Below the pieces are notes generated by a model. It was not told the DNA's origin and did not search any database. It was given only the letters and a program-made list of their open reading frames with translations. From the IMG/VR virus record IMGVR_UViG_3300009008_000061, positions 1 to 49,590 of that record: 49,590 nucleotides of DNA; one strand, 5' to 3'. Both the position numbers and the translations under genes were made by a program. Positions within the stretch are counted from its first letter, which is position 1; each line of letters opens with the position of its first letter. This document shows, piece by piece, positions 10,550 through 39,868 of the stretch. The stretch is from a virus.

Positions 10550-10720
10550 ATGAAAATCCAACAAAATCAAAAGAAATCGGTTAAAATCACTAGAGATGCA
10601 AACGAGAAATTAGTTCTGGAACTGAACCGACAGGTCGGGAATGTCCCGGTCATGAATGAACTGTCCCGCGGATGGCACCTCATCAACTGCAAGGACTTCC
10701 TGAATGTATCATCTGGTTGA
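10550..10720 (+). CDS. Small hypothetical protein (56 aa)
   Basis: GGAGG lies 12 bases before the ATG. Basic, AT-richer than its neighbours, ending inside queE (17-base overlap). No domain. The tight fit between the glycosidase-like gene and queE supports it being translated. Confidence 0.55.
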   Translation: MKIQQNQKKSVKITRDANEKLVLELNRQVGNVPVMNELSRGWHLINCKDFLNVSSG

Positions 10721-11366: not shown

Positions 11367-11368
11367 CC

Positions 11369-11938
11369 ATGGGATTTCCAAAGTGCCGAGCGAAGGAATT
11401 TTTCGAGGAGTTGTGTCTCCGGGTGGGCGAGAACCCCATGCGGGAGGGCTTGAGAGAAACCCCCCGGAGGATTGCCGGTGCCTGGGATGCGCTCTACCAG
11501 GGCTATTCCCAGGACCCGGTGAAGATTCTCAGTAGTGCGAAGTTTGAGGCTGAGACCGAACACATGATTATCCTGCGGGACATCGAATTCTTCTCAACCT
11601 GCGAACACCACCTCCTCCCCTTCTACGGAAAGGCCCATGTAGCCTATATCCCTGGCAAGGAGATGGTCGGTGTGTCGAAAATCGCTCGGGCCTTGGATGC
11701 CATCGCCCGGAGGATGCAGGTCCAGGAGAGGCTTACCGGCCAATTGGTTGATGCCCTCCAGACCGCCCTGGAGCCGAAGGGGGTGATGGTGGTCGTCGAC
11801 GCGGTCCACCTTTGCACCCGCGCTCGGGGTGTGGAGAAACAGAATTCCGTCATGACCACCTCGGCCATCTCTGGAGTGTTCAGGGACTCTGGAGAGGCGA
11901 GGGCAGAATGCTTGGGGTTGATTCGTGATGAGCGATGA
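11369..11938 (+). CDS. folE: GTP cyclohydrolase I (FolE, type IA)
   Basis: 189 aa. Makes dihydroneopterin triphosphate from GTP, the entry step of 7-deazaguanine synthesis. Zinc ligands C78, H81 and C149 are present (STCEHHL and HLCTRARG), as are the MVGVSKIAR and ERLTGQ motifs. Presence of the Cys ligands means the zinc-dependent type IA enzyme. The start behind TTGAGGT gives a normal family length; earlier in-frame codons lie in queE. The end overlaps the start of the small Cys-rich gene. Confidence 0.94.
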   Translation: MGFPKCRAKEFFEELCLRVGENPMREGLRETPRRIAGAWDALYQGYSQDPVKILSSAKFEAETEHMIILRDIEFFSTCEHHLLPFYGKAHVAYIPGKEMVGVSKIARALDAIARRMQVQERLTGQLVDALQTALEPKGVMVVVDAVHLCTRARGVEKQNSVMTTSAISGVFRDSGEARAECLGLIRDER

Positions 11939-12164
11939 CTTTGTGATGACCTATCAGGAATACGCGGAGAACTACTCCGGGGGCCTGTGCCCCGTCTGCG
12001 GGCGATTCTTCCACATCAACGAAGACCATTCGGTGGCCACCTCCTGCAACTGCTTTCAGGAGCCGGTGCTGGTCCAGACACCTGCTTCTTGCGGGGGTGG
12101 CTACCCTACTCTCATAGAAAGGGCTGAATATGAAGGCGATTGTACTCCTGTCGGGGGGAGCTGA
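11928..12164 (+). CDS. Small Cys-rich (zinc-ribbon-like) protein before queC
   Basis: 78 aa from ATG 11928 (a GTG directly before it is also possible). Carries CPVCG near residue 21 and CNC near residue 40, with two later Cys, a plausible four-Cys zinc ribbon. It overlaps folE by 11 bases and queC by 35 bases. The adjacent QueC lacks its own C-terminal zinc cysteines, so this protein could supply a metal site in trans, which is speculation. No clear ribosome site, so translation may be coupled. Confidence 0.5.
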   Translation: MSDDFVMTYQEYAENYSGGLCPVCGRFFHINEDHSVATSCNCFQEPVLVQTPASCGGGYPTLIERAEYEGDCTPVGGS

Positions 12165-12696
12165 TTCCCGATTACTTCTTCGGAGGATTGCCAATGTCAA
12201 CGGACCCAAGAACACCCTGGCACTCTTCTGCGATTACGGACAACTCATGCCAGAAAAGGCGGCGGCTCGGGTGGCGGCACACCATGAGGGGACACCCTTC
12301 CTGTGCAAGTCTTTCCCTTACACGCCCCCCTCGCACCTGACTGATGTCTACCACCAGGGGAATCCCCATACTACCGAGAAGGTTCCTGAGTCTTGGGTCC
12401 CAGGGCGAAACCTTATGTTGGCATCCATAGCCCTGTCCATTGGGGAGGCCATGGGGGCCGATGCTATCTACTTCGGGTTTAATGCAGAGGACGCGGAGAG
12501 CTATCCTGACTGTTCCCATGAATTCATGGAACACATCAACCACCTCTCCACGAAATGCACCGGACGGCGGATGGCCGTGTCGGCACCGTTCATCAACCAG
12601 CCGAAGGCGGCTATCCTTGCAGAATTGGAGAAGGAGGGCCTCACCGAAGAGGACTACATCTCCGGATACCCAGAGACGAGGCTTGCCGATGATTAG
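12130..12696 (+). CDS. queC: 7-cyano-7-deazaguanine synthase QueC, lacking the C-terminal zinc site
   Basis: 188 aa. ATP-dependent ligase that turns 7-carboxy-7-deazaguanine into preQ0. PP-loop SGGADS at residues 8-13, then the family motifs VPGRNL and ESYPDCSHEF. Normal QueC has about 220-230 aa and ends in a four-Cys zinc site. Here the protein stops after SGYPETRLADD without any of these cysteines, and the following glycosyltransferase starts inside the stop region (8-base overlap). No amidotransferase (Gat) domain is fused, so the expected product is preQ0 and not archaeosine-type G+. Confidence 0.88.
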   Translation: MKAIVLLSGGADSRLLLRRIANVNGPKNTLALFCDYGQLMPEKAAARVAAHHEGTPFLCKSFPYTPPSHLTDVYHQGNPHTTEKVPESWVPGRNLMLASIALSIGEAMGADAIYFGFNAEDAESYPDCSHEFMEHINHLSTKCTGRRMAVSAPFINQPKAAILAELEKEGLTEEDYISGYPETRLADD

Positions 12697-13741
12697 AGTG
12701 GTGATGCAGCACAACGCCATCATGAACTGGTCTCACATCATGCGCGGGCGGTTCGGGGACCTTGCCCGCGAGGTGGGGAAGCAGAGGGAGGGGTTCAATA
12801 TCGGAATTGCCTTCCCTGCGGCCCTCGAACAGAACGAAAAGACCTCCATCCTAGACGACATCTCTCAGAAGGGGGTGTGGGCAACCGGAGCGGCCCTCCA
12901 CGCGGAGGAGGGGGATTGTATCATCGTGACCGATGTCCAGGATGTGGACCCTGGCCCACTCACCGGCCTCAAGGGGTGTTTCAAAATCGGCATGGTCCAC
13001 GGTGGCCCCCATGAACTCTGCGACTTCACCCTCGACCGAGGCCCTGCCTACAGGCCCCTCTTCGAGGCGCAGTTGAAGTGCTACGACCAACTCTGGGTCA
13101 CCACCACCTACCACTCCCACCTCCTTCAGCAGACCTATCGAATCTCGCACGACAAAATCAAGGTGGTGGGTCTGCCCCTCGATGTAAGGCTGGCCATCGG
13201 AGAGAGCGACCTGATTCCCCTGGAGGAGGGCGAGGAATTCGACCTGGACATTCCCTGGGCCGAGAAAAAGGACGAGGTCCTTTTCTGCTCCCGGCAGACC
13301 AAGGACAAGGGCTACGACCTTGCCATGCACCTCGTCAACTCGACGGACCTCCCGGTGAAAATCCAGAGATACTCAACCCGGAGGGGCCTCTATCGAGCCT
13401 TGGCCGAACACAAGTGGGTCCTGATACCCTCCCGGCGCGACACCTTCGGCATCCTGGCCTCGGAGGCCGCGATGTTGGGGTCGGTGCCCCTGGTACCCTA
13501 CTCCTTCTGCTACCCGGAGATTCTAACCCAACAGTGGCCCTTCTACCTGGGCGAGGGGAAGAAGTATAACGAGGACCTCACCCCGGATGTGGTGGCCGCA
13601 TCGGTGGAGAGAATCATGAATATGGAGATACCGGAGTCGGAGATTGACAAGCACCTGTCGGGGGCCGTGGTTCGATATATGCAGTATGATGAGGTGTTCG
13701 ACGCATCGGTCCTGACCCTGTTCTCAAGGTTCGCGGAATGA
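12689..13741 (+). CDS. Glycosyltransferase, GT-B fold (GT4-like), between queC and dpdA
   Basis: 350 aa. LFCSRQTKDKGYDLA is the start of the C-terminal GT-B donor domain and SRRDTFGILASEAAMLG matches the conserved E-x7-E region of family 4 (with Asp at the first position). The N-terminal half has an acceptor-type fold with VHGGPHE. It overlaps queC by eight bases and dpdA by four, so it is made together with both. Eukaryotic queuosine mannosyltransferase is also a GT4-type enzyme, which makes a 7-deazaguanine acceptor thinkable here. That is inference from position. Confidence 0.8.
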   Translation: MIRVVMQHNAIMNWSHIMRGRFGDLAREVGKQREGFNIGIAFPAALEQNEKTSILDDISQKGVWATGAALHAEEGDCIIVTDVQDVDPGPLTGLKGCFKIGMVHGGPHELCDFTLDRGPAYRPLFEAQLKCYDQLWVTTTYHSHLLQQTYRISHDKIKVVGLPLDVRLAIGESDLIPLEEGEEFDLDIPWAEKKDEVLFCSRQTKDKGYDLAMHLVNSTDLPVKIQRYSTRRGLYRALAEHKWVLIPSRRDTFGILASEAAMLGSVPLVPYSFCYPEILTQQWPFYLGEGKKYNEDLTPDVVAASVERIMNMEIPESEIDKHLSGAVVRYMQYDEVFDASVLTLFSRFAE

Positions 13742-14817
13742 AGATTTTCTTTGTAGCCTCTTCTTCCGTGGGCCACATGAAGAGGGCCAGAGAGGTGATG
13801 AAACGCTACCCAGGGGAGGTGTGCTATCTTAAATCCTTCGCATATTGGACTTCCCCCAATGCGTTCAAGTATTGGGCGTGGTTACGCCGGAATGGTGACG
13901 AGTTCATGGTGGATTCAGGAGCATATACCTATCTGGCAGCAGATGGAACTCTCGACATTCCCTACCCTGATTGTGACAGCTACATTGACCACTATTTTCG
14001 ATACCTTCGAAGAATCGAGCCTCTATGGGACCGATTTGTAGAGTTGGACCTCTACAAGTTGTTCGGAGTGGATTTCATCATGGACACGACTTGGCCCCGG
14101 ATGTTCGATTTCCAGAGAGAGACCGGGAAACCTGCAATCTTCGTCTGGCACAAGGAACTTGGACAAGAGGGCTGGATGCGAATGCTCCAGAACGAACAGG
14201 TCCAATGGGTAGGACTGAACAAGGACCTTGGGTACGGGAATTTCCCATTGTGGCGAAGGATGGTGACCGAGGCCCGGGAGTACGGGAAGAAGATTCATGG
14301 ATTCGCTGCGGTGAGGAGGCCCCTCCTCGAAGCTGTCGACATTGACTCGGCAGATTCCACTACGGCCTTCACCACTACAGACAAATTCGGTCAATCCGAA
14401 TTCTACGACTCCCGGGTCGACGGCCATGGTTACATGATTACCAAAAACTCCCTCCGGTCCCTCAAGAGGACCCTCAAGAAGGCTGGCGGCAACACACAGA
14501 AGGCTCACAACCGGCACCTCCGAGAACTTCGACACCACCTTGATTTTGACATCGGTGGCCGAATTGATGGACGGAGAGCCTCCAAGGATGCTATGTGTGT
14601 GGAAAACATCGCCCATCTGGTGGAGATGCAGAGGGAAGTCACCAAGTTGTGGGAGGTAAGGAGACAGCGTGGATACTCGGAACATACCGGTCGAACACAT
14701 CTACCCGAACAACTGGAACCCGAATCGGCAGAAACAGACGACCTTCGAGAAGGAGAAGGAGTCGATTCGGAAGTTCGGGATGATAGACCCCCTTCTAGTC
14801 AGGGACCTCACGACTGA
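13738..14817 (+). CDS. dpdA: DpdA-like DNA guanine transglycosylase
   Basis: 359 aa, tRNA-guanine transglycosylase superfamily, phage DpdA branch. VDSGAYTYL (D59) and VELDLYKL (D104) hold the two Asp of the TGT active site. IHGFAAVRRPLL followed by DIDSADSTTA matches the C-terminal barrel motif of TGT enzymes. It should swap guanine in phage DNA for preQ0 or a derivative. ATGA overlap with the glycosyltransferase upstream. Odd: the frame runs 149 bases into parB, and the last 50 residues are just the parB start read in another frame. The family domain ends near residue 310. Confidence 0.85.
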   Translation: MKIFFVASSSVGHMKRAREVMKRYPGEVCYLKSFAYWTSPNAFKYWAWLRRNGDEFMVDSGAYTYLAADGTLDIPYPDCDSYIDHYFRYLRRIEPLWDRFVELDLYKLFGVDFIMDTTWPRMFDFQRETGKPAIFVWHKELGQEGWMRMLQNEQVQWVGLNKDLGYGNFPLWRRMVTEAREYGKKIHGFAAVRRPLLEAVDIDSADSTTAFTTTDKFGQSEFYDSRVDGHGYMITKNSLRSLKRTLKKAGGNTQKAHNRHLRELRHHLDFDIGGRIDGRRASKDAMCVENIAHLVEMQREVTKLWEVRRQRGYSEHTGRTHLPEQLEPESAETDDLREGEGVDSEVRDDRPPSSQGPHD

Positions 14818-15373: not shown

Positions 15374-15854
15374 CTGGCCGCGGATGCAGTTGGAGTTCAA
15401 TGCCTACCCAGGCTCGATGAAGGAGTTCTGCAAAGAACACGGAATCAACTTCCAACACGCATCCGGAAAATTGAAGGCCAAGGATAAGCAGAATTTCGAG
15501 AGGCAGGTCGTCAAGGCTGCCGAAGATGACTTGGTGGTGGAGTTCGCCAAGGACATCAAGAAGAGGGTGGCCCGACACTGGCGGCTCACCGAGGTCATTG
15601 AGAATCGAATCCTCCAGGAACTCCAGAAGGACCTTGTCGAAGCGAAATCTCTCGAAGGGGTCCTGAAAATCATGCAGGAGAACATTCGACTCCAGCGGCT
15701 CATCATGGGCGAACCCGACATGATTACTTCCGAGGGTCCAAAGAGTCCCTATGAAGCCTTCCTGCTCAAGATGCAGAAGGACGGAAAAATCACCGAGGGA
15801 GAGGTCGAGGAAATCAGCGAAAAGATAGACGAGGCCTCAAAGGATGATACTTGA
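15357..15854 (+). CDS. terS: Terminase small subunit (probable)
   Basis: 165 aa, starting inside the ParB-like gene and overlapping the large terminase by 11 bases. N-terminal helix-turn-helix-like region (GSMKEFCKEHGINFQHASGK) followed by long charged helices, the usual plan of small terminase subunits that bind the packaging site and oligomerise. The assignment rests on this plan and on position directly before terL. Confidence 0.75.
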   Translation: MPKPINWPRMQLEFNAYPGSMKEFCKEHGINFQHASGKLKAKDKQNFERQVVKAAEDDLVVEFAKDIKKRVARHWRLTEVIENRILQELQKDLVEAKSLEGVLKIMQENIRLQRLIMGEPDMITSEGPKSPYEAFLLKMQKDGKITEGEVEEISEKIDEASKDDT

Positions 15855-17118
15855 TTCCACATTCAAAAAAGAGTGGTTCAAAACCATCGGGTACGAACCC
15901 CACTCCCGGGGCCAATGGGACCTGCACCTGTCCCCCTCAAGGTTCCGAGTCGTTGTTTGTGGTCGTCGATGGGGGAAGTCCTATTCCGTGTCCCAGGAGG
16001 CTACCGCCTACCTGTGTGTCCCTGATGCCTCAGTTGCAGTCATCGCTCCTACATACAAACATTCGGACATCGTGTATAAGGAAATCTACCGGCGCATTGT
16101 CCGAGATGGTGCTATTCCTACCCGAAGGGTTTCTCAGTACGAAATAGAGACTACCTGGGGTTCCAAGGTGGTGAAGAGGTCGGCGGATAAGCCGGACAAC
16201 ATCCTGGGTGATGGCCACGACCTCGTCATTGTTGATGAATTCTCGGTGTTGAAGGAAGAAGTGTGGACGCAGTACATCAGGCCGACCCTCTCAGACCGAC
16301 AGGGTGCGGCCCTTTTCATTGGGACCCCCCGAGGGTTCAACTATGCCTACCAGCTTTTCCAGCTTGGCCTTGACCCCGATGCTGTCGATTGGTCCTGCTT
16401 CCGGAACCCGACCTGGACCTCCCCGCGAATCAACCCCGATGAGGTTGAACAGGCCCGGAAGGACCTCCCCCAACTGATGTTCCAGCAGGAGTACGGTGCC
16501 GAATTTGTGGCGGTCGGCGGTATGGTCTATCCCTTCCGGCCCGACCTGCACATCGACAAGAAGTTCTTCCCGCCTCAGAGGTTCTCCCGAATTGTCGGTG
16601 GAGTGGATTGGGGCTTTGCCAACCCCTCGGCGATTATCCTTGGCGGGGTCATCAACGAGAATCCTCTCGTCATCCAGGTGTTCCATGAATGGACCCTTCC
16701 CCGGCAGACCACTCCCGAGGTGGTCTCCAAGCTCCATGAACTCCAGGACCAATTCGGTGTCCTCGGATTCTACATCGACCCTTCGGCAGCCGACCTCATC
16801 GAACAGGCTGAGAATGATGGGGTCCGGGTGGAACCCGCCAACAACGATGTCCCCGGTGGGATTGCAGCGGTGGCCTCGATGATGGAGGGTGACCCCTCCC
16901 GACTCACCTTCACCCCCGGGCTTGTGAACACCCTCAACGAAATCACCCGATACCGATATGAGGACACCTTCGACCGGAACATCAACGAAAAACCGGCGAA
17001 GAAGGCCGACCACTGTATGGACGCACTCCGGTACATGGTGATGGGTGCCAGGGATTCTTACCAGCCCTGGGAGGGTATTGTCGACGGAGAGCGCGAGGAC
17101 CTGAAGTGGTTCGGATAG
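15844..17118 (+). CDS. terL: Terminase large subunit (ATPase and nuclease)
   Basis: 424 aa DNA-packaging motor. Walker A CGRRWGKS at residues 39-46, Walker B with catalytic Glu (LVIVDEF) near 126-133, and GTPRG coupling motif near 159. The RNase H-like nuclease domain has Asp in VDWGF (about 255), IDPSAAD (about 309) and DHCMDALRY (about 388). It pumps DNA into the prohead and cuts it. With circular permutation implied by the assembly, headful packaging is likely but unproven. Confidence 0.95.
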   Translation: MILDSTFKKEWFKTIGYEPHSRGQWDLHLSPSRFRVVVCGRRWGKSYSVSQEATAYLCVPDASVAVIAPTYKHSDIVYKEIYRRIVRDGAIPTRRVSQYEIETTWGSKVVKRSADKPDNILGDGHDLVIVDEFSVLKEEVWTQYIRPTLSDRQGAALFIGTPRGFNYAYQLFQLGLDPDAVDWSCFRNPTWTSPRINPDEVEQARKDLPQLMFQQEYGAEFVAVGGMVYPFRPDLHIDKKFFPPQRFSRIVGGVDWGFANPSAIILGGVINENPLVIQVFHEWTLPRQTTPEVVSKLHELQDQFGVLGFYIDPSAADLIEQAENDGVRVEPANNDVPGGIAAVASMMEGDPSRLTFTPGLVNTLNEITRYRYEDTFDRNINEKPAKKADHCMDALRYMVMGARDSYQPWEGIVDGEREDLKWFG

Positions 17119-17229: not shown

Positions 17230-19506
17230 GTGGGCGTTCTGACAGACCAAGTCTTCGGAGACACGAAGATTTCCGAGGAGGCCCTCGGCCCAAGAGAACG
17301 GGCCATGTCGGTCCTTTCTCCCTTCCCTCTCGAATCCATTATCGGCCCCGCCTACAACGACCCTGCTTCTCAGCAGTTCGGTCTGGACATTTTCGATGAA
17401 ATGTACGCCCTGGACCCGCAAGTCCGGGCCTGTCACCACACTAAGGTCATGGCTAGACTCATGACGGGGTGGGAGTTCATCCCTTCTGGGAACAAGAAGG
17501 TCGATGAGTTCATCACTTACACCACGACCAACATGGCCGGGTCCATGCACGACTTCCTCAGGGACCTCATGGAGGCCCTGAAGTATGGATTCGCGGTGGT
17601 GGAGATTGTCTGGGACCGTTACACCGATGGCCCCTACCGGGGCTACCTGGGCATCAAGGCCCTGAAGGCGAAGCCCGCCAAGAGCTTCCGATTCGACACG
17701 GACCGGAGAGGGAACCTCAAGAAGAGGGGCATCCGGCAGCATATCAATGGCCTCCCTCAGGACATCAAGCTCCCCAGGGACAAATTCATCGTCTACACCT
17801 ACCAGAAGGAGCCGGGAGGCTTTTACGGTAGGAGCGATTTCCAGCCGGTATATCGGCACTATTTCCTGAAACAAGCGTTAGAGCGTTGGTGGTCGGCCTA
17901 TCTCGAAAAATTCGCCGGTCCCACGGCCATCGGGAAATTCCCCCAGGGTGCAACCGAATCAGAGAAGAAGGAAGTTCTCGCCTTTCTCCGAAAGCTCCAG
18001 AACAACTCCGCGGCCATCTTCCCGGAGAAGTGGGAAATCGAACTGCTGGAGGCCAAGGAGGGTGGCTCCGAGAACTTCATCCGGGCCTTGACCTACCACA
18101 ACAAGATGGTGGCTAGGGGCATCCTGGTGCCCGACCTCATCCAGGACCAGGGCGACAGGTCCGGCTCCTACTCTCTAGGGCAGGTCCATGCCTCTAATTT
18201 CCTCTGGGTTCTCAAGGGCATCGGCAGGGAGTTGGAGACCGTAGTCGATGAGCAGTTGGTTCGCAGGGTCATTGATGTGAACTTCTCCGTCGACAAATAC
18301 CCGACATTCCAATTCATGGAATTTGAACCAGAAAATGTTCAGTCAGTTGCGTCGATGTTCCTCTCTCTGGTCAACGGAGGCATCATCGCCCCGGATGACC
18401 CTGTTATCAGGCGCAGACTGAACCTTCCGGCAGAGGGGGCCGAAAAATTAGAAAAGCGGCCCAATGTGACGGTCGGTGGGCTCCCGGGCGCACCGGTGCG
18501 AACCTCTGGGGTCCAACCTCCAAATGGCCGTGTTCCCTCTGCCGGTTCTTCTCCCACCGCTGGAGACAAATCTCCGATGTTGAATTCGGAGGATTTCGCG
18601 GTGAAGTACATTGTGACCTCTCGGGTTGACGGCCACCGACACTTTGCCATCACCGATGAATGGGGTGACGGGGTGACCACCTGGGGAGAATCCCGGGACG
18701 GCATCCCCCACATCCATCAGGTCCGGAAATGGGCGGTCATCGAGTCTGAGGAACATGAACATGACCTGCCCCATGAGAATGCCCCGAAGGATGCCCTCTC
18801 CAAGAGGCGCATCCGGGCCGAGGCTGCCAGTGACCCCTACAGCCCCCCCGGTGGTGGCGGTGGCCCCAAAGATGAGGCCCACGGTGGGCATAACCCTCCA
18901 GGGAGTGGCCTATCGGAGCTTCCCGAGTTGATGTTCACCGACCCTGAAGCCCTCTTGGGTGAGCATTTTAGGATTGCAGGAGAACAATACTTGGCGAAGG
19001 TGGCCAGGGCAGGAGGACCCTCCGAGGGCATGAGGACTCTGGATGTTCCGAAGATAAAGCAGTTGGGGAGGTTCAAGGAGGACCTCGCCGGGATGATGAC
19101 TGAACAGATGTGCCAGGGGGCCTTGGGTGCCCTTTTGGCCGAAGAGGGTGACGAGGAGATTCCGCTTCCCGATGGAGAATCCCCCGAGGGTGCCCTTTGG
19201 GAAGTCTATGGAGACCTCTACCCCCTCCTTAGTGAGAAGGTGAAAGAAGCCGAGGAAATTGCCTATTCGATGGCCGGGTCGATGGATGGATTGGTCCGGG
19301 AAGCATCGCATCGAGGGAAGGTGGCCATGGCAGCCGGAAAGAGTCCGGATGAAGTGATGAGTGCCGTGGACACTGTTCTCAGGGCAGAGGAACCCCGTTT
19401 GACCGCGACGGAGGAATTGAGCGAATGTCTGCATACTTGGAGGATTACCGGAAGAACCGTGATGAGCGATTGGCTCGACAGAAACCAGCGGAACTCGACC
19501 GGCTAG
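17230..19506 (+). CDS. Portal protein, Mu gp29-like (DUF935), with His-rich C-terminal extension
   Basis: 758 aa from a GTG behind AAAGGGGTGAG. Residues about 1-410 follow the Mu gp29/DUF935 portal pattern (ACHHTKVMARLMTGWEF, IVWDRYTDGPYRGYLGI). It forms the dodecameric DNA channel at one capsid vertex. Mu gp29 is about 510 aa, so the last 250-330 residues are extra: DGHRH (about 466), IPHIHQV (about 490) and EHEHDL (about 507) form the triple H-x-H pattern seen in phage head proteins, followed by a helical domain that may be MuF-like minor head function. Overlaps the cupin gene by 82 bases. Confidence 0.88.
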   Translation: MGVLTDQVFGDTKISEEALGPRERAMSVLSPFPLESIIGPAYNDPASQQFGLDIFDEMYALDPQVRACHHTKVMARLMTGWEFIPSGNKKVDEFITYTTTNMAGSMHDFLRDLMEALKYGFAVVEIVWDRYTDGPYRGYLGIKALKAKPAKSFRFDTDRRGNLKKRGIRQHINGLPQDIKLPRDKFIVYTYQKEPGGFYGRSDFQPVYRHYFLKQALERWWSAYLEKFAGPTAIGKFPQGATESEKKEVLAFLRKLQNNSAAIFPEKWEIELLEAKEGGSENFIRALTYHNKMVARGILVPDLIQDQGDRSGSYSLGQVHASNFLWVLKGIGRELETVVDEQLVRRVIDVNFSVDKYPTFQFMEFEPENVQSVASMFLSLVNGGIIAPDDPVIRRRLNLPAEGAEKLEKRPNVTVGGLPGAPVRTSGVQPPNGRVPSAGSSPTAGDKSPMLNSEDFAVKYIVTSRVDGHRHFAITDEWGDGVTTWGESRDGIPHIHQVRKWAVIESEEHEHDLPHENAPKDALSKRRIRAEAASDPYSPPGGGGGPKDEAHGGHNPPGSGLSELPELMFTDPEALLGEHFRIAGEQYLAKVARAGGPSEGMRTLDVPKIKQLGRFKEDLAGMMTEQMCQGALGALLAEEGDEEIPLPDGESPEGALWEVYGDLYPLLSEKVKEAEEIAYSMAGSMDGLVREASHRGKVAMAAGKSPDEVMSAVDTVLRAEEPRLTATEELSECLHTWRITGRTVMSDWLDRNQRNSTG

Positions 19507-23197: not shown

Positions 23198-24529
23198 ATG
23201 GACGAGAACAAGAAACCTGAAGTGGTAATTGAAGTGGCACCTCCGAAGAAGCGTATCCTGATGTGGTGTGATGGCCCTATGGTCACCACCGGGTTCGGAA
23301 CGGTTGCTCGGAATGTAGCCAAAGCCCTCCATGACACCGGTCGCTATGAGGTTCATTTCGTGGCGGTCAACTTCTGGGGGGAACCTTTCGACCCGAACGA
23401 GTTCCCGTATGTGGTCATGCCCGCTGCCATCGAAAGGCGCGAGGCACTCAAGACCCAGGTCGGGGACCCATTCGGTGGATTCAATTTCGCCAACGCCTAT
23501 TGGAATGGCGAATTCGATGCCGTCTGGGTCATGAACGACATCAACATCCTGGCCCAGAGGGCGCAGATTTTCGAACAGGGTCCCCAGGGGCAGAAGAAGC
23601 AGCCGAAGTGTCCGGTCGTCTACTATTTCCCCATCGACTCCATCTGGCTCGACAAGCAGATGCTCGCGGGGTTCGAGAAGGCCGACTATCCGGTCAGCTA
23701 CAACGAATACGCCAAGAACCTCATCGCGGGAGTGGACCCTGCCCTCGCCGAGAAGATGAAGGTCATCAACCACGGCTCCGACATCGACACCTTCCACCGC
23801 ATCCCGGACCAGGGAGAGGTGATGGATTTCCGCAGGAACACTCTCGGTGTCGATGACGGGACCATCCTGTTTATCCAGGTGGCGAGGAACCAGTTCAGGA
23901 AATCGAACGGGGACCTCATCCTGGCCTTCGCCGACTTCAAGAAGAAGAATCCCACGAAGAAGGCGAAACTCTATATGCACATGAACCCGCAGGACCAGGG
24001 ACCCATGCTCTTTGGAGCGGTCATGTCTGCGGGGCTGAAACTTGGAGAGGATGTTGTGTTCCCCTCCAACCATTCTCCCGGTCGGGCGGTTCCCCGGGAA
24101 CTGCTCAACATGATTTACAACGCGGCTGATGTCTTCGTCACGCCGACTCTCGGAGAAGGATGGGGTCTGCCCATCACCGAGGCCATGGCTGCCGAGACCC
24201 CGGTTATCGCTCCGGACAACACCGCGATTTCAGAGATTCTCAACGCTGGCGACGAGGATGGGCTGCGAGGGTGGCCGGTGCCCTGTGGAGATTGGCCGAT
24301 GGGCCTTGTCCACATCGACGGCACCGGGTTCCGCCCTCGCGTGGACATCGAGGCCATGAGTGCCTTGATGGATGAGGTAGGGACCATGGCTCTCGAACGC
24401 AGGGCCACGGGAGAGGTTCCAGAAGGTCTCCGGCCCAGACTCGAACGGGCCTTGGAGTATGCGAGGGAGATTTCCTGGAAAAACATCGGAGACCAGTGGG
24501 TCTCCCTAATCGACGAGGTGGTGAAATGA
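23198..24529 (+). CDS. Glycosyltransferase family 4-like (GT-B), inside the structural operon
   Basis: 443 aa. ILMWCDGPMVTTGFGTVARN is the N-terminal acceptor domain start (GxG loop), FIQVARNQFRK begins the donor domain, and TPTLGEGWGLPITEAMA is the E-x7-E motif of family 4. This is a retaining GT with a nucleotide-sugar donor. Lying between the major capsid gene and the connector genes, it is probably made late, so capsid or tail proteins are the likely acceptors, or DNA during packaging. ATGA overlap with the next gene. Confidence 0.88.
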   Translation: MDENKKPEVVIEVAPPKKRILMWCDGPMVTTGFGTVARNVAKALHDTGRYEVHFVAVNFWGEPFDPNEFPYVVMPAAIERREALKTQVGDPFGGFNFANAYWNGEFDAVWVMNDINILAQRAQIFEQGPQGQKKQPKCPVVYYFPIDSIWLDKQMLAGFEKADYPVSYNEYAKNLIAGVDPALAEKMKVINHGSDIDTFHRIPDQGEVMDFRRNTLGVDDGTILFIQVARNQFRKSNGDLILAFADFKKKNPTKKAKLYMHMNPQDQGPMLFGAVMSAGLKLGEDVVFPSNHSPGRAVPRELLNMIYNAADVFVTPTLGEGWGLPITEAMAAETPVIAPDNTAISEILNAGDEDGLRGWPVPCGDWPMGLVHIDGTGFRPRVDIEAMSALMDEVGTMALERRATGEVPEGLRPRLERALEYAREISWKNIGDQWVSLIDEVVK

Positions 24530-31400: not shown

Positions 31401-32055
31401 CAAGCTCGACAACACCCTCATCACCAAGACCGCGAAGGCGGGCATCACCCTCGGGCAGGTGTTGGAATCGGTGGCCCATGCCACGGCCAACATGATTACC
31501 AATGTCACCGACAACGGGACCGAGAAGCTCTACAAATTCTTGGAGGCCCTGGGCCAAATCGCCATCCAGGCCGGTATCGCGGCCTTTATGTTGGCCGAGA
31601 CCTTCAAGGCCGCAATCGCCACGCCCTGGATAGCCGCCGCCCTCATCGGGGTCGGATTGGCCCTGAAGACCTGGGCTTCTTCGAAGCTCAAGGACCTCCG
31701 GAATGCGGAGGATGCGAGCGCGGTCTCTATCGGGGCCTTCGCTCAGGGTGGAGTTGTGGGTGGAAAGGGCGGGGTGGACAACAACCTCGCGTGGATTTCG
31801 AGGGGTGAGTATGTGATGCCGGTCGAAGAGACCCAGAGGTATCTACCGCTCCTGGAAGCCATGAGGTCGAACATGGTCCCCTCCTTCGCCGGTGGGGGCG
31901 TAAACCATTCCTCTGATTCCCTGGAGCCGGGAGCCGAGGGAGGCGGGCAGACCCTCAACTTTAACTTCTATGGGACCGTGGTCGGGGGAAACCAGACCGC
32001 TATCAGAAACCTTGCCCGGGAACTCCGGGACTACATTTTCGAGGAGAGCCTCTGA
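28429..32055 (+). CDS. Tape measure protein
   Basis: 1208 aa. Residues about 25-330 are a TP901/PhageMin_Tail-type core (VGFGTAFEQGMANVQSVA, SAMYTLASAGLSVKEIMETT). The middle is long charged helices, and a hydrophobic stretch near residues 1040-1085 (IAAFMLAETFKAAIATPWIA) is the usual membrane-insertion segment. At about 0.15 nm per residue it predicts a tail near 180 nm, a rule-of-thumb estimate. Start overlaps the chaperone stop (TGATG). Confidence 0.92.
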   Translation: MPGPMGMGNNMVIQFGSVGAGVLSGDIDKVSSSLKRLGATMAAVTAATVGFGTAFEQGMANVQSVARASAGDLNLLEKTARNLARTTVRDATRATSAMYTLASAGLSVKEIMETTAPVIYLSGATLHNLRDSAEMVVGTLKQFGLATDQSWRVANVFAASIQNSLLNMERLGDAMKYVGPIARSVNLRIEETTAALMGLHDAGLLGSISGTGLRQMFLRLAKPTEDISRMLGGVSLSANGLSAVLDQLNASQMTTADLFKLFNVRAVNAMMILRRLGSEGLAEYLSKITDTNSAMEMFNIQMNTMKSQFIIFWNKMKDIGIEVFQRMQPLLSHTLSFMTQIVDKVGDWLRAGSSSEAEKWVEYMRAMNVEGEEYVGLLEDYNRLATFEQLAHQMDNAADKMNLFDSYTGHSVDVTKQLRDALEGAQQEAEALESEARAISSLPPAEEYYGLLPQDEIRKIQKWRQEVDDGTTSAESFGRASKEVALIQEYLDKNIESVNRGLGASEEVVRAYARAHNMGMEEARKALEQYSMEFSHWKTALVTITTGQVIPIIEEATERTEAAFKFETAQENLERLQSAFAELAVMAKAGDTTSVVDIGTGSLDLLSTMINQMVRARQIVVDFGDDLSGAFASPEGLERVQTLFAELGFDIPLVAEEGDVAARALRDGSMRASQVLEGLRSQYTFLFNFIKDEAPEVWNAMSKAQQEVLEGWIKGDRAGAKKAKAANADLLADYQKILSNTNDAILAIEKMRDQYRVGAMQATDWGDKGGQALKTLMSAALEGTVTFDQLKVKLDELAKRDPSLQALLPSAEDLREWYDGTIPVVGEFKEMTLQEMEDLASGLQEALAKTDPADREALLGHWQDYWTAVGIGGEDAMKLVADGMEGIEGSTATSGQSVKALIQAVKGFRDIATAFDWGSVFEPEEFQSHVADMRGALASAAFDAQSQMAVMKGALVDADEGVKQATLSLLVMMQTLAGGPVAVEDFIEALDKLDNTLITKTAKAGITLGQVLESVAHATANMITNVTDNGTEKLYKFLEALGQIAIQAGIAAFMLAETFKAAIATPWIAAALIGVGLALKTWASSKLKDLRNAEDASAVSIGAFAQGGVVGGKGGVDNNLAWISRGEYVMPVEETQRYLPLLEAMRSNMVPSFAGGGVNHSSDSLEPGAEGGGQTLNFNFYGTVVGGNQTAIRNLARELRDYIFEESL

Positions 32056-32447
32056 TGGCTGACTATACTGAAGGAACCGTGGCAGCAGAAACCATCTCCG
32101 GGACCGATTATGCCTACTGGCCGATGCCCCATCATCCGACCCCGCCCCCTGCCATGTTGTTGACCAAGAAATACAACACGAAGGAGCATCGCCGGATGGG
32201 TGTCATCATGGCGGTCATAGACTATGGAGATAAATACATCTTCGACATTCAGTGGCAATACTTGACCTCTGCCGAGGTATCCGGTATCCAGGAATGGGCC
32301 GACCGTCGAACCTTCCGCTTCTATTACAACTGTACCGAGGGGTCGGGGGGTGATTATGTCACCGTTTATGCCCATGGGAAAAACTTCAAGCCGGTGAAGA
32401 AGCGGGGGGATATGTGGGGCCTCATCATGAAACTTGAGGAAATCTAA
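32055..32447 (+). CDS. Minor tail protein (distal tail region)
   Basis: 130 aa, beta-rich, starting one base into the stop of the tape measure and ending one base into the next start. Position and size suggest a small adaptor between tail tip and the giant protein. No motif recognised. Confidence 0.65.
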   Translation: MADYTEGTVAAETISGTDYAYWPMPHHPTPPPAMLLTKKYNTKEHRRMGVIMAVIDYGDKYIFDIQWQYLTSAEVSGIQEWADRRTFRFYYNCTEGSGGDYVTVYAHGKNFKPVKKRGDMWGLIMKLEEI

Positions 32448-35400
32448 TGGCCTACGAAATCCATGATTGGGTCTCTGTCACCGACGATTGGTGTAATGCT
32501 GTTGAGGCCAATGGATACGACATCCCACCGGAGGTTCGGATTCAGGTGGTGGGTCGCCCCGGAGTGTCCTCCTACCATGAGACCATGACCGATGCGGTCT
32601 CCCTCCTCTCCGCTGACCCCATCTCCTACGGTATCGACTGGTTCAAATGGGGCGGGTATGGCAGGACCAAGGACCAGGATTTCACCTTTGCAAACAATGA
32701 CGGGTGGTTCGATTCCGCTTCCGGTGTGACCCGAGAGAACATCGGCGATTTCATGGTCGTGGAATTCTCATTCTCCACGACCGAATGGAAACCCCTCTTT
32801 ATCGGGCGCATCCAGGGCGTGAAGAGAAACCCCGACCTCACCCGAACCATCACGGCCCACTCCGATTGGGAGACCTGGAAGAAGAGGCACCGACCCTTCA
32901 AGCCCTTTGCCTATATGCCGGACCAGTACATTTCGAAGACTCCTATCATGAACAAGGAGTATCGGAAGCTGTCCACCGGGTCCTTCTACCTCTACCAGAA
33001 TGTCACCTACGACTACAATGACTACCCCGGCGACGGGCCCACCGACGATGATTCTTGGCCGAAAACTTTCTCCTTCTGGGCCGAAAGGGGCATCGGCTCC
33101 TGGGTCGATGAGGAAAAGATTATCGTCAAGACATGGTACGGGCGAGAGTGTTATTCGGATGGGTGTTTCGAGGATGACCATGAAGATGCGTTTGGGTGCG
33201 GACAGTCGGGAACCGAGGATTGCGACAACACCCTCGATTACAACTGCCGGTATTTCGACCTCTGCCAGAATTTCATCGACAACGATTGCTGGAGCCTGAA
33301 CGATGGTGCCATCACCGTCTATTCCCGCGGCCAAGCCATTAACCATGAATGGAATGTCTGTGTCGCCTCGGGTGTGAATTGGATTGGCAGGGCCAGAAGA
33401 AGCAGGGTCGCTAACCAGTATCGGGACAAGGGTGAAGCCTATTCGATTCACCCGCCCCATATCCGGTATTCGGATGTTGTAGATACCGACGCTGAATGGG
33501 GTGATGGGTCCAGGTTCCCCTTCGCCCTCATCGACCGGAATGAGGTCCAGGTGGGAGGGTGTGTCGGTATCGCCGGACCCGACCCGGACCATTGGGACGG
33601 AATGGTTGGCGAGGGGTACGGTGTGGGCAACGCCTGGGATTCAGAGGGCGAGAGAACCCTCTGGCCCTATTGGGGCATTCGCCTCAAGGGTGTGGTTTCT
33701 CAGACCAACAAGTCGCCCTATCCGGGATATGTCCAGCAGAATCCGGGTGCCATCATTGACCCGAATGAGGTCAATCAGCCTCTATTCCCGGATGCCCGAG
33801 AGACCAAGAAGAACCCAAGCATACCCGAGGCCAACGACTACCTCGAACCTTGGTTCTATGTCTGTTATTCGCCGGAAATGACCACGGTCTCCAGCCTCTC
33901 CGGGTTCCCCATGGCCAGCTACTACAGCAATGGGGTCACCGGAAGGTGTAATCCTCCGCAGCCCATCATCGCCATGCTCCACTACATGGCCTCGGGTTCG
34001 CGTCTGGATTACAACTCCTTGGGAAGCACCCCGGACACCGCCGACCTGTTCGATTCGATTGATGTGGCGCAGGTCACCGACAACTATGAGGAATTCCGAT
34101 ACACCGGCTTTGACTACCATGTCCGTGGGAGCCGAATCCCTGGTATCCAATGGAGGTGTGGCGGGTGGGGGAGCGCAAGCGACTCCATCCACACCGGTCT
34201 CGATGAGACCATCGTCAATTCCGAAAAGACCTGGGAAACTGTCATCAAGAACATCCTCCAGGTGACCGGGATTCACCTGTACCAGAGTCCCTGGGGAACC
34301 GTCGACTGGATGGTTGTCCCTGGCAGACTCTCTGCCGAAGCACCCTCCGTGGATTGCGAGGCCTTCGCGCCCCGGTTTGTGGCGACCCTGGCCGGGTCCC
34401 ATCCCCACCTCCACCACTCCTACGACTCCTCCGCGGCCCAGGCCTCCGGGTTCGATGTGGAGAGGGATGCCTGGGACCTCGCCATCGAGGAGCGGGATGC
34501 CATCCGGGCTGTCGACTTCAAATTCCAGATGCTCGATGCCGACCAATCATTCGGCATCACCAAGCTGGTCGAGGTCCAGGAGAGAACTCCCGACGACTCA
34601 GACACCGAGGAATCCAACCTCTATGGCTCTGCCGCTACCCTGAGGCACCGGTCCGAGGGCCGGGAGATGGCCGAGAATATCTACGCGGCCTACGGGCGGG
34701 TGTGGTCTGAGGTCCAATTCACCACTCCGATGGCCCGAATGATTTGCAACCCCATCGACTCCAAATACCTGTTCAGGCCTGGGGCTAAAATCCATGTGAC
34801 CGACAACACCCAATCCTGGGCTGCGTGGTGTGATGTGGTCGGCATGGACTTCGACATCGTCAAAGGCACGATGAACATTAGGGCAGTCACCTGTTCGACT
34901 ACACCCGGCACAGATGGATGCGTGGTCACCCCTCCCTACATAGATTTTGGTTTGGTGGATGAGTGGGGGCAACGGACCTTGGCCATGAACATTGGCAACC
35001 CCGGTGCCACGCAATTGGCCGGTTCCATGGTCATCACTGGCACCAATGCCGGGATGTTCTCTGCCGGTGAATACTATTACAGCCTTGCCCCCGGTGAGGA
35101 CACCACGGTCTCAGTGACCTTCGCCCCCGGTGGGGTGTATGGACCCAAGGGTGCGACTGTCTCCTTCTCCGATGCCATCTGCTACACGGTGGAACTCTTC
35201 GGTGTCTCTGCCGAGCTTTCCCGGGGAGCGGTGGCCATCTCCGGAGACCCGCAGGGGTCGATACCCTGGATTGAACCGGAATCTCAACTTGATGTCGGTG
35301 TTCAGGATGGGCCTGGAAGAATCCGACAGGGTTTCTTTATCAAGAATGTTGGCGAGGGGGACCTCGCGGGCGAGTGGAATATCTGGGGTGGTAGGGTCCA

Positions 35401-38400
35401 TGGTTCGGGGGGCGAATGGGCCTTCGACCTTGAGGACCAAGCCTATGACCTCGCGGAAGCCGAGGGGTCTCAATTCTATGTGGTGTTCAAGCCGTGGGGG
35501 CCTGGGAAGTATTACGCCACCATGGAGGGCACCGACCCCATGTACGACATCTACCTCTACGGTCAGGCTGTCGGCTGGTTCGGGCCTTTCGGCATTCGGC
35601 CATCCGGGGAGATTGGGTTCGGTGCCACGATGGCCAACATCGAGACCGGGACCCGAGAGGTGGAGATTCGGAACTTTGTCGACGAGACCCTCGAAATCAC
35701 CATCAATGTCTCCTGTCTCGGCGACTACACGGTTTACTCTTGCACCGATGCCACGGTCACCCTCACCGAGGATTTGGCCTCGACCACCCTGTTCAAATAC
35801 AACCCCGATTCCGCCGCTGCCCACTTTGCCGAGGTTACCTTCTCGACGACCTACACCGATGTAGAGACCCAGGATTCCCTGCCCTACATTGTTACGGCCA
35901 CCCTCTTCGGCGGGGCCTACCCCTCCGGCGTGACCTTCGACTACATCCAGGTCTTGCCGGGTGAGTTGGTATTCCCCGACACCTGGATTGCTGATGACAC
36001 CCGCTACCGCGACTTCACGGTTCTCAACCTGTCGGCGGTAACCCAGACCCTCAATTGGGCACCCAATGGGGAGAATGAATATTTCTGGCTCGACACGGTC
36101 ACGGCCCCCGAGCATTACATGGACGAGGGTAACGAGGTTCTCTATCCCGGTGCCACTATCTCCGGAAGGGTTGGGTTCGACCCGACCGCGGCAGGGTCCT
36201 TCTCGCAGATTTTCACCATCATCTCCGGTGAGGAGAATGAGTTCGACGCGAGGATTCTCTGTTCGGGGATTGGCCTTGCCCAGGACTCGAAGTGCAAGCT
36301 CTACCCAACCTACCTCATCTTCACCAATGTCCCGGTGGGGGAGTCGGAGACCCAGACCGTCACCATCTCGAACACCACGCCGGTCGGATTGGAAATCGAC
36401 ACTGTCTTCGACATCACGGCCACCGGCTCCTATGTGGATGACTGGTCATACACCATCGACGATGCCAACATTCTCGGTGGAGAGTCGACCACGGTGTCGA
36501 TAACCTTCTCCCCCTCCAGGAGGGCTAGTTCCTATTATCAGTTCGACCCGGGCGATTCTTGCATCCACCTGACCTGTATGGGTCAGGGGTCGGCCTATTA
36601 CTATGTGAGACCCCCGATTCTGGACTTCGGACAGCAGGACTTCCATTCCGAAAAGACCCTCGACTATGTGGTCTCCAATACCCACAACGCGACCATCACG
36701 GTAACCCGCGCCCTGACCGGAGATTCCGAATTCGATGGGGCCGTGACCGACATGGAAATTGCCGCCGAGTCGGAGGCCACCGGGACCCTGACCTACGCTC
36801 CGACAGGAGATGGCGAACACACCGGCCTCATCACCTTCGACCTCGACGGGGCATCCCAGGAATATGAGATGACGGTCACCGGCACCGCGGTCGTCGGCCA
36901 GAAGCCGGTTATCGCCCTGAATGAGGTCCTCAATTTCCAGGATGTGGCGGTCGGGGCCACCGTGGGCCAGGCCTGCGTGTTCCAGAACCTCACGGCCACA
37001 ACCATCACTCTCACCATGTCTATTGCCGGTGTCGACCAAACCCAATTCGACTGGTCTCCCTTCATCGGGTCCAAACCGGATTGTGTTATCCCTGGCGGCG
37101 GGTATGGCTATGCGACAGTCACCTGCTCCCCGACCCGAGAGGGGCCTCTGGGGTGCAGCATGATTGACTCTACTGGCCAACTCGATGCCTCGGTCATTCT
37201 CCAGGGCCTGTCCCACAAATATGCCTACTCCCTCGACCCGACCGAGATGACCTTCGGGGTCCATCGGCCCGATGAGTCGACCGAATCTTCCTACACCATC
37301 ACGAACAACCTGTATGAAAGAACGATTTCAAATGTCACCCGGACCCTGTCCGGCGACACCGGCCACTTCACCACCTCGACGACCAACATCAACCTCTCCT
37401 CGGAGGAGACCGAGACTCATTATGTGACCTACGAGCCGACCGGAGTTGGTTCTCATGTCATGACCATCACCTTCTCCACCTCCGATGCTGATGCCGGGGA
37501 CTCCACGGTGCGGACCCTCCGGGTGGTGGGGGCCATGGTGGAATCGGGGACCGAGGTTCCTGAATTGATAATCACACCGGGGACCATGCACTTCCCCACC
37601 ACCTATGTCGGCAACACGGTCTACCGGGATTTCGAGGTGACCAACCTGATGACGGTCTCCCGGACCCTCTCCATCGGGTGGGATTCTAATGCCCCGTGGG
37701 CGTTTGTGGAGGTTGCCCACCCCGACTACATCTCCAATTCGGGCGGAACGCTCATCGAACCTGGGCAGAGGTTGATTGGCACATGGTCCTTTACTCCTGC
37801 CGGGGACAATTCCCTGAAGGAACACTATTCCAACATCTGCCTCGATTGCACCGACGGAGCCACCATTTCTATGCAGGGGTTCGATGCAGCCCATGATTAT
37901 GGTGAATGCTATCCGGTCCAGGGTGCGGCAGGGTTCGGTGTCATCGACTGCTCCGGCAATTACGAACTCCCCATCACCCTTTACAACAACTACGAAGAGG
38001 ACCTCGACGATACCGTCTTCACGGTGACCGGGGTGGATAAGCAGTATTTCTCGATTGCTACCGAGACCGGAGGCCCATACTACGACAAGGTTACCGGAAC
38101 TGTCGAATCCTTCGACTCCTTCGACATCTATGTTCTGTTCAACCCGGGTAGGTCGGCCCCCTGTTACGCGGGAATTGTGTCCGACGGAATCTGCAATGCC
38201 ATCACCCTCCACGGTGCGGCCCAGAATGTTCTCTATGTGGCCGACGAGGTCCTCAACTTCGGGGCCATGGTCACCGGGACCGACGACACCAAGACCTTCA
38301 CCATCTACAACTACGGGGACACCACTCGGAATGTCCTCCTGAATTGCCCCTCCGGGTTTGACATTGACCCTGTGAATACCATCAATATTGCGGCCAACGA

Positions 38401-39313
38401 CTCTGAAGATGTTGATGTGGAATTTGCCCCGACCGAGGTCCTCTCCTACGGGGGCACCATCAATGTTCGGGACTATACGAATGGGGTTGAGGGCCGACTT
38501 CTCGACTCCATCTCGGTCCATGGCCAGGGTGTGGCCTCTACCGCATCCTTTGTGATAATTCCGGGAGACACCTATGCCTTCGGACCCAGGATGGTCTCCC
38601 AGACTTCGGCCCCTGTCGACTTTGTTCTCTTCAATACCGGGAATGTCCAGTTGGATTACCGGTCCTACCTGGGATACAACAACTCCCTCTACTTCACCAT
38701 GGAGACCGCGGTCATCGGCACCTTGAATCCAGGTGAGAGTGCGATAGCACAGATAAGTGTTTGCCCCTCTGACTCCGACTATGCTTGGTGTATCCTGGAT
38801 TGGTCGGTCTCCACGACCAGCGAGGGGACCCCCCTCACCGGGGATACCCATGGGGTCACGGTGACCGGTGTGGTTTCTCATGAGACTCGGTTCCTCCTCT
38901 CCCCCTATGGAATCGGCGGGACCGAGGACCTTTGGGTCGGCGGACCCATGGGCCAGGATGTTCATGCCTACATCACCAACAACGGCGGCTACCAGATTTC
39001 CGGAGAGGTGACCTTCGTCGCCGCCGAGTCTTCGACCGATGGCAGCACTTGGCATTCAGCCACCCAGGGGAATGCCATCAATCCGCCCTTCGCGCAGACC
39101 GACACCTTCGACCTCGCCCCCGGCGAAGGAGGGGACTGGTCGGTCTGGGCCAACAACGGGGTCGCCGGAGATTTCCACTACCGGGCCTTCTACAAGGTCA
39201 CGGCCTCCGGGGAGATTGGGGCCATCACGCCCTATGCCGACCTGTCCAGGTCTGTCGCCGGGTGGGGCACCATCAGCTACAATACCTGCATATCTGTTCG
39301 ATGTTGGGACTAA
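32447..39313 (+). CDS. Giant tail protein with about 13 Hydin/ASH-like Ig repeats
   Basis: 2288 aa. Residues 1-825 are a tail-tip module: an N-terminal hub-like region (SYGIDWFKWGGYGRTKDQDF), a Cys-rich insert near 234-285 and a second beta domain. From about residue 826 to the end come about 13 repeats averaging 112 aa, each starting with a pattern like Pro-x4-FG-x-V and containing N-x-G/N-x-T turns and a late V-x-F-x-P, as in the ASPM/SPD-2/Hydin (ASH) type Ig fold. Probably the receptor-binding central fibre, projecting as a beads-on-string shaft. The last repeat is the most divergent and may be the tip. Confidence 0.85.
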   Translation: MAYEIHDWVSVTDDWCNAVEANGYDIPPEVRIQVVGRPGVSSYHETMTDAVSLLSADPISYGIDWFKWGGYGRTKDQDFTFANNDGWFDSASGVTRENIGDFMVVEFSFSTTEWKPLFIGRIQGVKRNPDLTRTITAHSDWETWKKRHRPFKPFAYMPDQYISKTPIMNKEYRKLSTGSFYLYQNVTYDYNDYPGDGPTDDDSWPKTFSFWAERGIGSWVDEEKIIVKTWYGRECYSDGCFEDDHEDAFGCGQSGTEDCDNTLDYNCRYFDLCQNFIDNDCWSLNDGAITVYSRGQAINHEWNVCVASGVNWIGRARRSRVANQYRDKGEAYSIHPPHIRYSDVVDTDAEWGDGSRFPFALIDRNEVQVGGCVGIAGPDPDHWDGMVGEGYGVGNAWDSEGERTLWPYWGIRLKGVVSQTNKSPYPGYVQQNPGAIIDPNEVNQPLFPDARETKKNPSIPEANDYLEPWFYVCYSPEMTTVSSLSGFPMASYYSNGVTGRCNPPQPIIAMLHYMASGSRLDYNSLGSTPDTADLFDSIDVAQVTDNYEEFRYTGFDYHVRGSRIPGIQWRCGGWGSASDSIHTGLDETIVNSEKTWETVIKNILQVTGIHLYQSPWGTVDWMVVPGRLSAEAPSVDCEAFAPRFVATLAGSHPHLHHSYDSSAAQASGFDVERDAWDLAIEERDAIRAVDFKFQMLDADQSFGITKLVEVQERTPDDSDTEESNLYGSAATLRHRSEGREMAENIYAAYGRVWSEVQFTTPMARMICNPIDSKYLFRPGAKIHVTDNTQSWAAWCDVVGMDFDIVKGTMNIRAVTCSTTPGTDGCVVTPPYIDFGLVDEWGQRTLAMNIGNPGATQLAGSMVITGTNAGMFSAGEYYYSLAPGEDTTVSVTFAPGGVYGPKGATVSFSDAICYTVELFGVSAELSRGAVAISGDPQGSIPWIEPESQLDVGVQDGPGRIRQGFFIKNVGEGDLAGEWNIWGGRVHGSGGEWAFDLEDQAYDLAEAEGSQFYVVFKPWGPGKYYATMEGTDPMYDIYLYGQAVGWFGPFGIRPSGEIGFGATMANIETGTREVEIRNFVDETLEITINVSCLGDYTVYSCTDATVTLTEDLASTTLFKYNPDSAAAHFAEVTFSTTYTDVETQDSLPYIVTATLFGGAYPSGVTFDYIQVLPGELVFPDTWIADDTRYRDFTVLNLSAVTQTLNWAPNGENEYFWLDTVTAPEHYMDEGNEVLYPGATISGRVGFDPTAAGSFSQIFTIISGEENEFDARILCSGIGLAQDSKCKLYPTYLIFTNVPVGESETQTVTISNTTPVGLEIDTVFDITATGSYVDDWSYTIDDANILGGESTTVSITFSPSRRASSYYQFDPGDSCIHLTCMGQGSAYYYVRPPILDFGQQDFHSEKTLDYVVSNTHNATITVTRALTGDSEFDGAVTDMEIAAESEATGTLTYAPTGDGEHTGLITFDLDGASQEYEMTVTGTAVVGQKPVIALNEVLNFQDVAVGATVGQACVFQNLTATTITLTMSIAGVDQTQFDWSPFIGSKPDCVIPGGGYGYATVTCSPTREGPLGCSMIDSTGQLDASVILQGLSHKYAYSLDPTEMTFGVHRPDESTESSYTITNNLYERTISNVTRTLSGDTGHFTTSTTNINLSSEETETHYVTYEPTGVGSHVMTITFSTSDADAGDSTVRTLRVVGAMVESGTEVPELIITPGTMHFPTTYVGNTVYRDFEVTNLMTVSRTLSIGWDSNAPWAFVEVAHPDYISNSGGTLIEPGQRLIGTWSFTPAGDNSLKEHYSNICLDCTDGATISMQGFDAAHDYGECYPVQGAAGFGVIDCSGNYELPITLYNNYEEDLDDTVFTVTGVDKQYFSIATETGGPYYDKVTGTVESFDSFDIYVLFNPGRSAPCYAGIVSDGICNAITLHGAAQNVLYVADEVLNFGAMVTGTDDTKTFTIYNYGDTTRNVLLNCPSGFDIDPVNTINIAANDSEDVDVEFAPTEVLSYGGTINVRDYTNGVEGRLLDSISVHGQGVASTASFVIIPGDTYAFGPRMVSQTSAPVDFVLFNTGNVQLDYRSYLGYNNSLYFTMETAVIGTLNPGESAIAQISVCPSDSDYAWCILDWSVSTTSEGTPLTGDTHGVTVTGVVSHETRFLLSPYGIGGTEDLWVGGPMGQDVHAYITNNGGYQISGEVTFVAAESSTDGSTWHSATQGNAINPPFAQTDTFDLAPGEGGDWSVWANNGVAGDFHYRAFYKVTASGEIGAITPYADLSRSVAGWGTISYNTCISVRCWD

Positions 39314-39322
39314 GGAGATTCC

Positions 39323-39868
39323 ATGTCACGGTATTCGCCCTACTTCGACGACGAATGGCCCGACTACTTCTCGATGAAGGAATTCGACAGGGTGAAGGTG
39401 GCGGGGAAGGAGTACCGTGTTCGATTTACGGAGGTTGGTCTCTTCCTCCTGGACCACTTGGTTCTGAATGTGCTGTCTCCCATTCGGAATTACTTCGGCA
39501 AACCCATGCGAATCACCTGCGGGGCGAGGTCCATGGAGGTCCATCAGGCCATCCTGGCAGAGGCCAAGAAGGACCCGACCAAGCCGAAGCCCTCGAAGAG
39601 GAGTGACCACTTCTTCTCCAACGCGGCCCACCCCCATGGGGTCGGTGCCGCTGATGTCACCATCCGGGGGGTGTCCCCCCAGGACATTCTTATTTTCGCC
39701 ATGAATAAGGGCCTCCCCACGGGACAGGTCATCGGGTATCCGGCAAGGCATTTCGCCCATATCTCCAACCCACGGACCCTCCTCTTCTCGGACGAGGCCA
39801 TCCAGGTTCTCGGAGAAAAGAAACCATATCTCATCTGGACGGCTGAAAGAGGCTACCGGCCCATCTGA
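39323..39868 (+). CDS. Endolysin, M15-like D,D-peptidase (probable)
   Basis: 181 aa. A Zn-peptidase pattern: SDHFFSNAAHPHGVGAADVTI near residues 92-113 resembles S-x-H...G-x-A-x-D of Peptidase_M15_3, and FAHIS near residue 150 supplies the third His. One residue is missing between the expected Ala and Asp, so spacing is slightly off. It would cut peptide cross-links of the cell wall. No signal peptide, so it needs a holin (candidates at 19864-20368). AAGGAG precedes the ATG. Confidence 0.7.
   Translation: MSRYSPYFDDEWPDYFSMKEFDRVKVAGKEYRVRFTEVGLFLLDHLVLNVLSPIRNYFGKPMRITCGARSMEVHQAILAEAKKDPTKPKPSKRSDHFFSNAAHPHGVGAADVTIRGVSPQDILIFAMNKGLPTGQVIGYPARHFAHISNPRTLLFSDEAIQVLGEKKPYLIWTAERGYRPI

Follow-up and report, generated by a model that had tools for sequence, protein, structure and literature searches.

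A putative tail-tip protein of a long-tailed phage with a long tandem array of ASH/Hydin-type Ig-like domains

The window analysed here, a virus record of 49,590 bases (56% GC), contains a gene for a protein of 2288 amino acids. We read it as the tail-tip protein of a long-tailed phage, from which 12-13 ASH domains would project as an arm (probability about 0.72). ASH/Hydin domains are best known from cilia and centrosomes. Profile evidence supports 12 domains of the ASH/HYDIN/choice-of-anchor D class in the protein, least firmly D2 and D12; a 13th is doubtful. None of the phages found in this analysis has so long a row.

The tail genes are arranged in the order tape measure, 130-aa ORF, 2288-aa ORF and endolysin-like gene (Table 1). 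The start of the 130-aa ORF overlaps the tape-measure stop by one base (TGATG), and the start of the 2288-aa ORF overlaps the stop of the 130-aa ORF, also by one base (TAATG). The two junctions point to one translation unit. A GAGGA motif was observed upstream of the 2288-aa ORF start. The gene is placed shortly downstream of the tape measure, as is that of the tail hub or Tal of siphophages, and no other large plus-strand ORF able to be the hub was found in the stretch from the tape measure to the endolysin-like gene. No Dit was recognised. The position after the tape measure and a small coupled ORF, and before a putative endolysin, makes a tail-tip fibre the best reading, and the gene order supports the tail protein proposed in the preliminary description. 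ORF mapping also placed residue 826, where the repeats had been said to begin, at 34922. Residues 1-825 gave zero matches in Pfam, PHROG, NCBIfam, PDB and phages, and are presumed from gene order to be the tail hub.

Table 1. Features of the 2288-aa protein and of its surroundings (positions in the window; residues in brackets).
Feature	Position	Strand	Evidence
Terminase	15844-17118		
Mu-type portal	17230-19506		
Tail tape measure protein, 1208 aa	28429..32055	+	TIGR01760 1.7e-43; phrog_1533 2.3e-55; PhageMin_Tail 1.7e-30
130-aa protein	32055..32447	+	ORF; weak phrog_1194, E 0.0019
Giant protein, 2288 aa, putative tail-tip protein	32447..39313	+	single open frame; role from gene order
Presumed tail hub / attachment part (1-825)	32447..34921	+	gene position only
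ASH domain D1 (826-924)	34922..35218	+	HYDIN Ig 2.3e-4; 20.8 bits leave-one-out
ASH domain D2 (925-1045), divergent	35219..35581	+	internal profile only, barely above shuffles; Z 6.0 to D1 and D8
ASH domain D3 (1046-1160), divergent	35582..35926	+	16.7 bits leave-one-out
ASH domain D4 (1161-1278), nearest D9	35927..36280	+	11.4 bits leave-one-out; Z 15.7 to D9
ASH domain D5 (1279-1383)	36281..36595	+	Cep192_D4 2e-6; ASH 1.1e-5
ASH domain D6 (1384-1482), nearest D8	36596..36892	+	ASH 3.8e-6; Z 10.4 to D8
ASH domain D7 (1483-1591)	36893..37219	+	Cep192_D4 0.0019; 16.2 bits leave-one-out
ASH domain D8 (1592-1700)	37220..37546	+	ASH 1.1e-6; AF2 pLDDT 92.5; PDB fold matches CEP192/HYDIN
ASH domain D9 (1701-1816)	37547..37894	+	11.0 bits leave-one-out; Z 15.7 to D4
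ASH domain D10 (1817-1926)	37895..38224	+	17.3 bits leave-one-out
ASH domain D11 (1927-2030)	38225..38536	+	HYDIN Ig 2.3e-6
ASH domain D12 (2031-2145), weak	38537..38881	+	HYDIN Ig 0.0028; 3/300 shuffles beat it
C-terminal segment D13 (2146-2288), unproven beta domain, possible distal tip	38882..39313	+	no family match; 6/300 shuffles score as high or higher; AF2 pLDDT low
Putative endolysin (peptidase M15-like), next gene	39323..39868	+	phrog_894 3.5e-11; M15_3 0.002, below cut-off

Besides the genes in Table 1, the window encodes a head protease, a major head protein, a tail tube protein, Erf and replication protein O. A GT1 family glycosyltransferase gene (23198-24529) lies between the major head protein and the tail genes and possibly serves virion or host glycan modification; a glycosyl transferase family 2 gene (8248-8973) and a weak GT4-type match (12440-13741) were also observed. 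Genes for a Radical SAM protein (10704-11366) and a queuine tRNA-ribosyltransferase-like protein (13738-14817; phrog_887) possibly belong to a 7-deazaguanine DNA or tRNA modification pathway (10704-14817). An N6/N4 DNA methylase is encoded at 5723-6469 (E 1.5e-43), and a 151-aa ORF on the minus strand (334-789) has a Lys/Ala-rich repeated N-terminus, histone-like in look.

When the whole protein was scanned, Pfam gave Cep192_D4 (6.9e-35), HYDIN_VesB_CFA65-like_Ig (2.9e-30) and ASH (1.9e-26), and the NCBIfam model choice_anch_D matched eight stretches (E 1e-56). NF012200 scored 190 bits relative to a cut-off of 45, which places the protein in the ASH/HYDIN/choice-of-anchor D class, and PF22544, PF15780 and PF22073 exceeded their cut-offs. 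These ASH-class matches cover the C-terminal two thirds of the protein. The classical phage Ig classes (Big, I-set and FN3) and BACON gave no match to the whole protein at E<=1; a stray Big_9 match (0.24) appeared on D6 scanned alone.

The shaft (residues 826-2288) was cut by its recurring pattern into 13 segments of 99-143 aa. Scanned singly, D1, D5, D6, D7, D8, D11 and D12 matched ASH-class models (E 0.003 to 1e-6), and three of them (D6, D8 and D11) exceeded the family cut-off. D4 matched only at 0.2, and D2, D3, D9, D10 and D13 had no family match. Since family models may miss diverged copies, internal homology was tested with an HMM built from the seven strong domains, the tested domain being omitted, against 300 shuffles of the same domain. 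D1 to D11 outscored all 300 shuffles, D2 narrowly (2.9 vs 2.8 bits), whereas D12 was beaten by 3 and D13 by 6 of the 300 (upper tail). Segments of residues 1-825 reached at most 4.1 bits. The segment borders were picked by the analyst from the sequence, so this test was not a blind one with respect to the borders; the matches in Pfam, NCBIfam and PDB depend little, if at all, on where the cuts were made. A profile trained on the odd domains recovered most even ones in phase, and one trained on the even domains most odd ones; D2 and D7 were missed, D3, D8 and D10 were recovered weakly, and 100 shuffled shafts never scored above 3.6 bits. Twelve domains therefore stand on the leave-one-out test, the odd/even profiles and, for D12, the HYDIN_Ig match (E 0.0028). 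The preliminary description had counted about 13 tandem ASH domains, a fair number of which the last member is in doubt, and its N-x-G/T turn and proline motifs fit the invariant columns of the repeat alignment (N29, P73 and G104).

A profile made from the window's twelve domains retrieved HYDIN (1.8e-65) from the PDB, together with CFAP65, CFAP47, CFAP74 and CEP192. An AlphaFold2 model of D8, for which the other repeats served as alignment, was predicted as an all-beta Ig-like sandwich with a pLDDT of 92.5. Its best PDB neighbours were CEP192, HYDIN and central-apparatus proteins (TM 0.77-0.85), so that D8, the sole domain modelled well, is predicted to be an Ig-like (PapD/MSP-like) beta-sandwich nearest known ASH domains. 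The model of D12-D13 was of low confidence. ASH identity was shown at the profile level for 12 domains and at the level of predicted structure for one. Single-repeat structure prediction and an ASH/Hydin profile search, two of the checks proposed beforehand, have both borne out the Hydin/ASH assignment, and the internal similarity of the repeats is present.

The row likely grew by duplication inside the gene, as judged from the sequence: the closest domain pairs, D4/D9 (Z 15.7) and D6/D8 (Z 10.4), make internal duplications likely. Old duplications would then have been followed by strong divergence. The repeats have a median pairwise identity of about 26%; exact DNA words common to two domains reach 15 nt at most. 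Hence, present-day repeat-mediated length change is not supported, and the suggestion that the fibre varies in length by repeat loss or gain found no backing in copies that are old, divergent and devoid of DNA repeats of a length at which recombination would be easy. With 51 K+R vs 184 D+E the shaft is strongly acidic, and it contains 22 cysteines; disulphides are possible.

Searches of phages, IMG/VR and GTDB genomes gave no relative of the whole protein, of residues 1-825 or of the tape measure. The portal and the terminase had none apart from the 4880-base contig IMGVR_UViG_3300013119_000407, which carries the complete terminase and a portion of the portal, both 100% identical in protein sequence to the window, and ends short of the tail genes; by sequence, it is the same or a very close phage. 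Erf relatives occurred at 29 loci, where a translated search gave no relative of the hub, the 130-aa protein, the tape measure, the endolysin, the capsid or the tube protein, and the repeat profile gave no ASH domain. The hub was in none of the 22 Erf-relative records searched whole, a search without a positive control and therefore weak evidence; one record showed a weak choice_anch_D match (1.2e-4) in a 1011-aa ORF. With a DNA pattern for the ASH core, five viral contigs with 1-2 domains each were retrieved. A contig with a pattern match in a 1072-aa ORF (L008) looked unrelated by eye. Another viral contig (L009, 838-4953) encodes a surface-protein-like product of 1372 aa that combines an ASH domain with an InlB B-repeat domain. 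A match to the tail sheath of Serratia phage Kevin (E 0.4) was judged to be chance. No relative sharing the same architecture was found.

ASH domains are already known in phages, including in annotation, as few copies in podophage cellulase spikes. The ASH domains of cultured phages lie in GH5 spike-type proteins, namely Erwinia phage S6 gp095, Pseudomonas phage Skulduggery gp18 and Serratia phage Parlo gp69. Like the 2288-aa protein these are virion-type and have ASH/choice-of-anchor D domains, which in the spikes lie in the N-terminal half (PMC9544554); their place on the particle is still to be shown (PMC9544554). The spikes contain 1-3 ASH copies by the internal profile and end in a GH5 enzyme, whereas the 2288-aa protein has 12-13 copies, lacks an enzyme and adjoins the tape-measure gene. 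In the Skulduggery and Parlo proteins ASH is located between a Gp77-type adaptor and the GH5 cellulase, and the Pfam models for the glycoside hydrolase and the adaptor match both of them, but neither matches the 2288-aa protein. Long beta-domain tail-tip arms are likewise a known design. The Tal of streptococcal phage TP-778L (1981 aa) also joins a structural N-terminus to a long beta-domain extension (PMC9437275), and such extensions in streptococcal siphophages measure 40-91 nm in predicted structures (PMC9437275). The Tal extension combines Ig, 3-beta and carbohydrate-binding modules, whereas here one family is repeated, and a sequence search detected no homology between the N-termini. The tandem-repeat protein of crAssphage, also a duplication-grown Ig-like row beside tail genes (PMC6949934), is built of BACON domains, which the 2288-aa protein does not match. 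HYDIN, CFAP65 and CFAP47 of cilia, found by the repeat profile, also carry this domain class in long tandem rows, but they are intracellular proteins of the eukaryotic axoneme, and there is no evidence for a shared function. Big, I-set and FN3 are the sole classes given in a review of Ig-like domains in phages (PMC9022992), so that ASH is easily missed in phages. In the open-access literature one paper mentions choice-of-anchor D for a phage, but no paper joining ASH/Hydin with a phage tail was found there, which is weak evidence. What is new is a long, enzyme-free, single-family ASH array in a gene near the tape measure.

In the tail-tip reading, the first 825 residues would anchor the protein to the virion where the tail tube ends. 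The remaining 1463 residues, predicted to form a chain of 12 and perhaps 13 Ig-like ASH domains, would reach out as a long segmented arm or spacer, placing the C-terminal end away from the tail, and the C-terminus or the domains may meet the cell surface. An Ig-sized domain is about 4 nm long, and thirteen of them, extended, would span roughly 50 nm. The arm is suggested by analogy with the GH5 podophage spikes, with the streptococcal Tal structures and with the predicted ASH-like folds also present in viral proteins that bear the name tail fiber or tail assembly protein; the fibre shape and flexibility are likewise inferred. It is rather doubtful, but conceivable, that the ASH domains are themselves adhesive, with weak glycan or protein sites along the arm acting through avidity and no single tip. 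Family scans found no separate receptor-binding or catalytic domain at the C-terminus, tandem BACON arrays of crAssphage have been proposed to aid host binding (PMC6949934), and the strong divergence among copies would suit different ligands, although in the GH5 spikes the ASH domains are connectors adjoining the enzymatic part.

The protein is unlikely to be a whisker or side fibre in its own right, encoded among the tail genes, instead of the tail-tip hub. Residues 1-825 do fit no known hub family, but the gene sits directly after the tape measure, where siphophages encode tip proteins, overlapping codons couple it to the tape measure, and the large plus-strand ORF that would have to be the hub in its place is missing before the endolysin-like gene. 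It is very improbable that the array is a compact scaffold binding other tail proteins, in the manner of the ASH arrays of the ciliary central apparatus, instead of an extended arm: the domain class is that of HYDIN and CFAP65, but known phage ASH domains occur in spike-type proteins and nothing in the window suggests a partner.

The protein shows that a domain famous from cilia can occur as a very long row in a tail gene of a phage, and that its presence in phages extends beyond the cellulase spikes. On a bolder and improbable view, the whole host-facing extension would be a single-family ASH array with at least 12 divergent members, each of which might bind a ligand of its own; such a multi-site binding arm, if true, would be of a kind not described for phages. 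The protein offers a clean case for asking whether the long Ig arrays of phages are spacers or binding surfaces.
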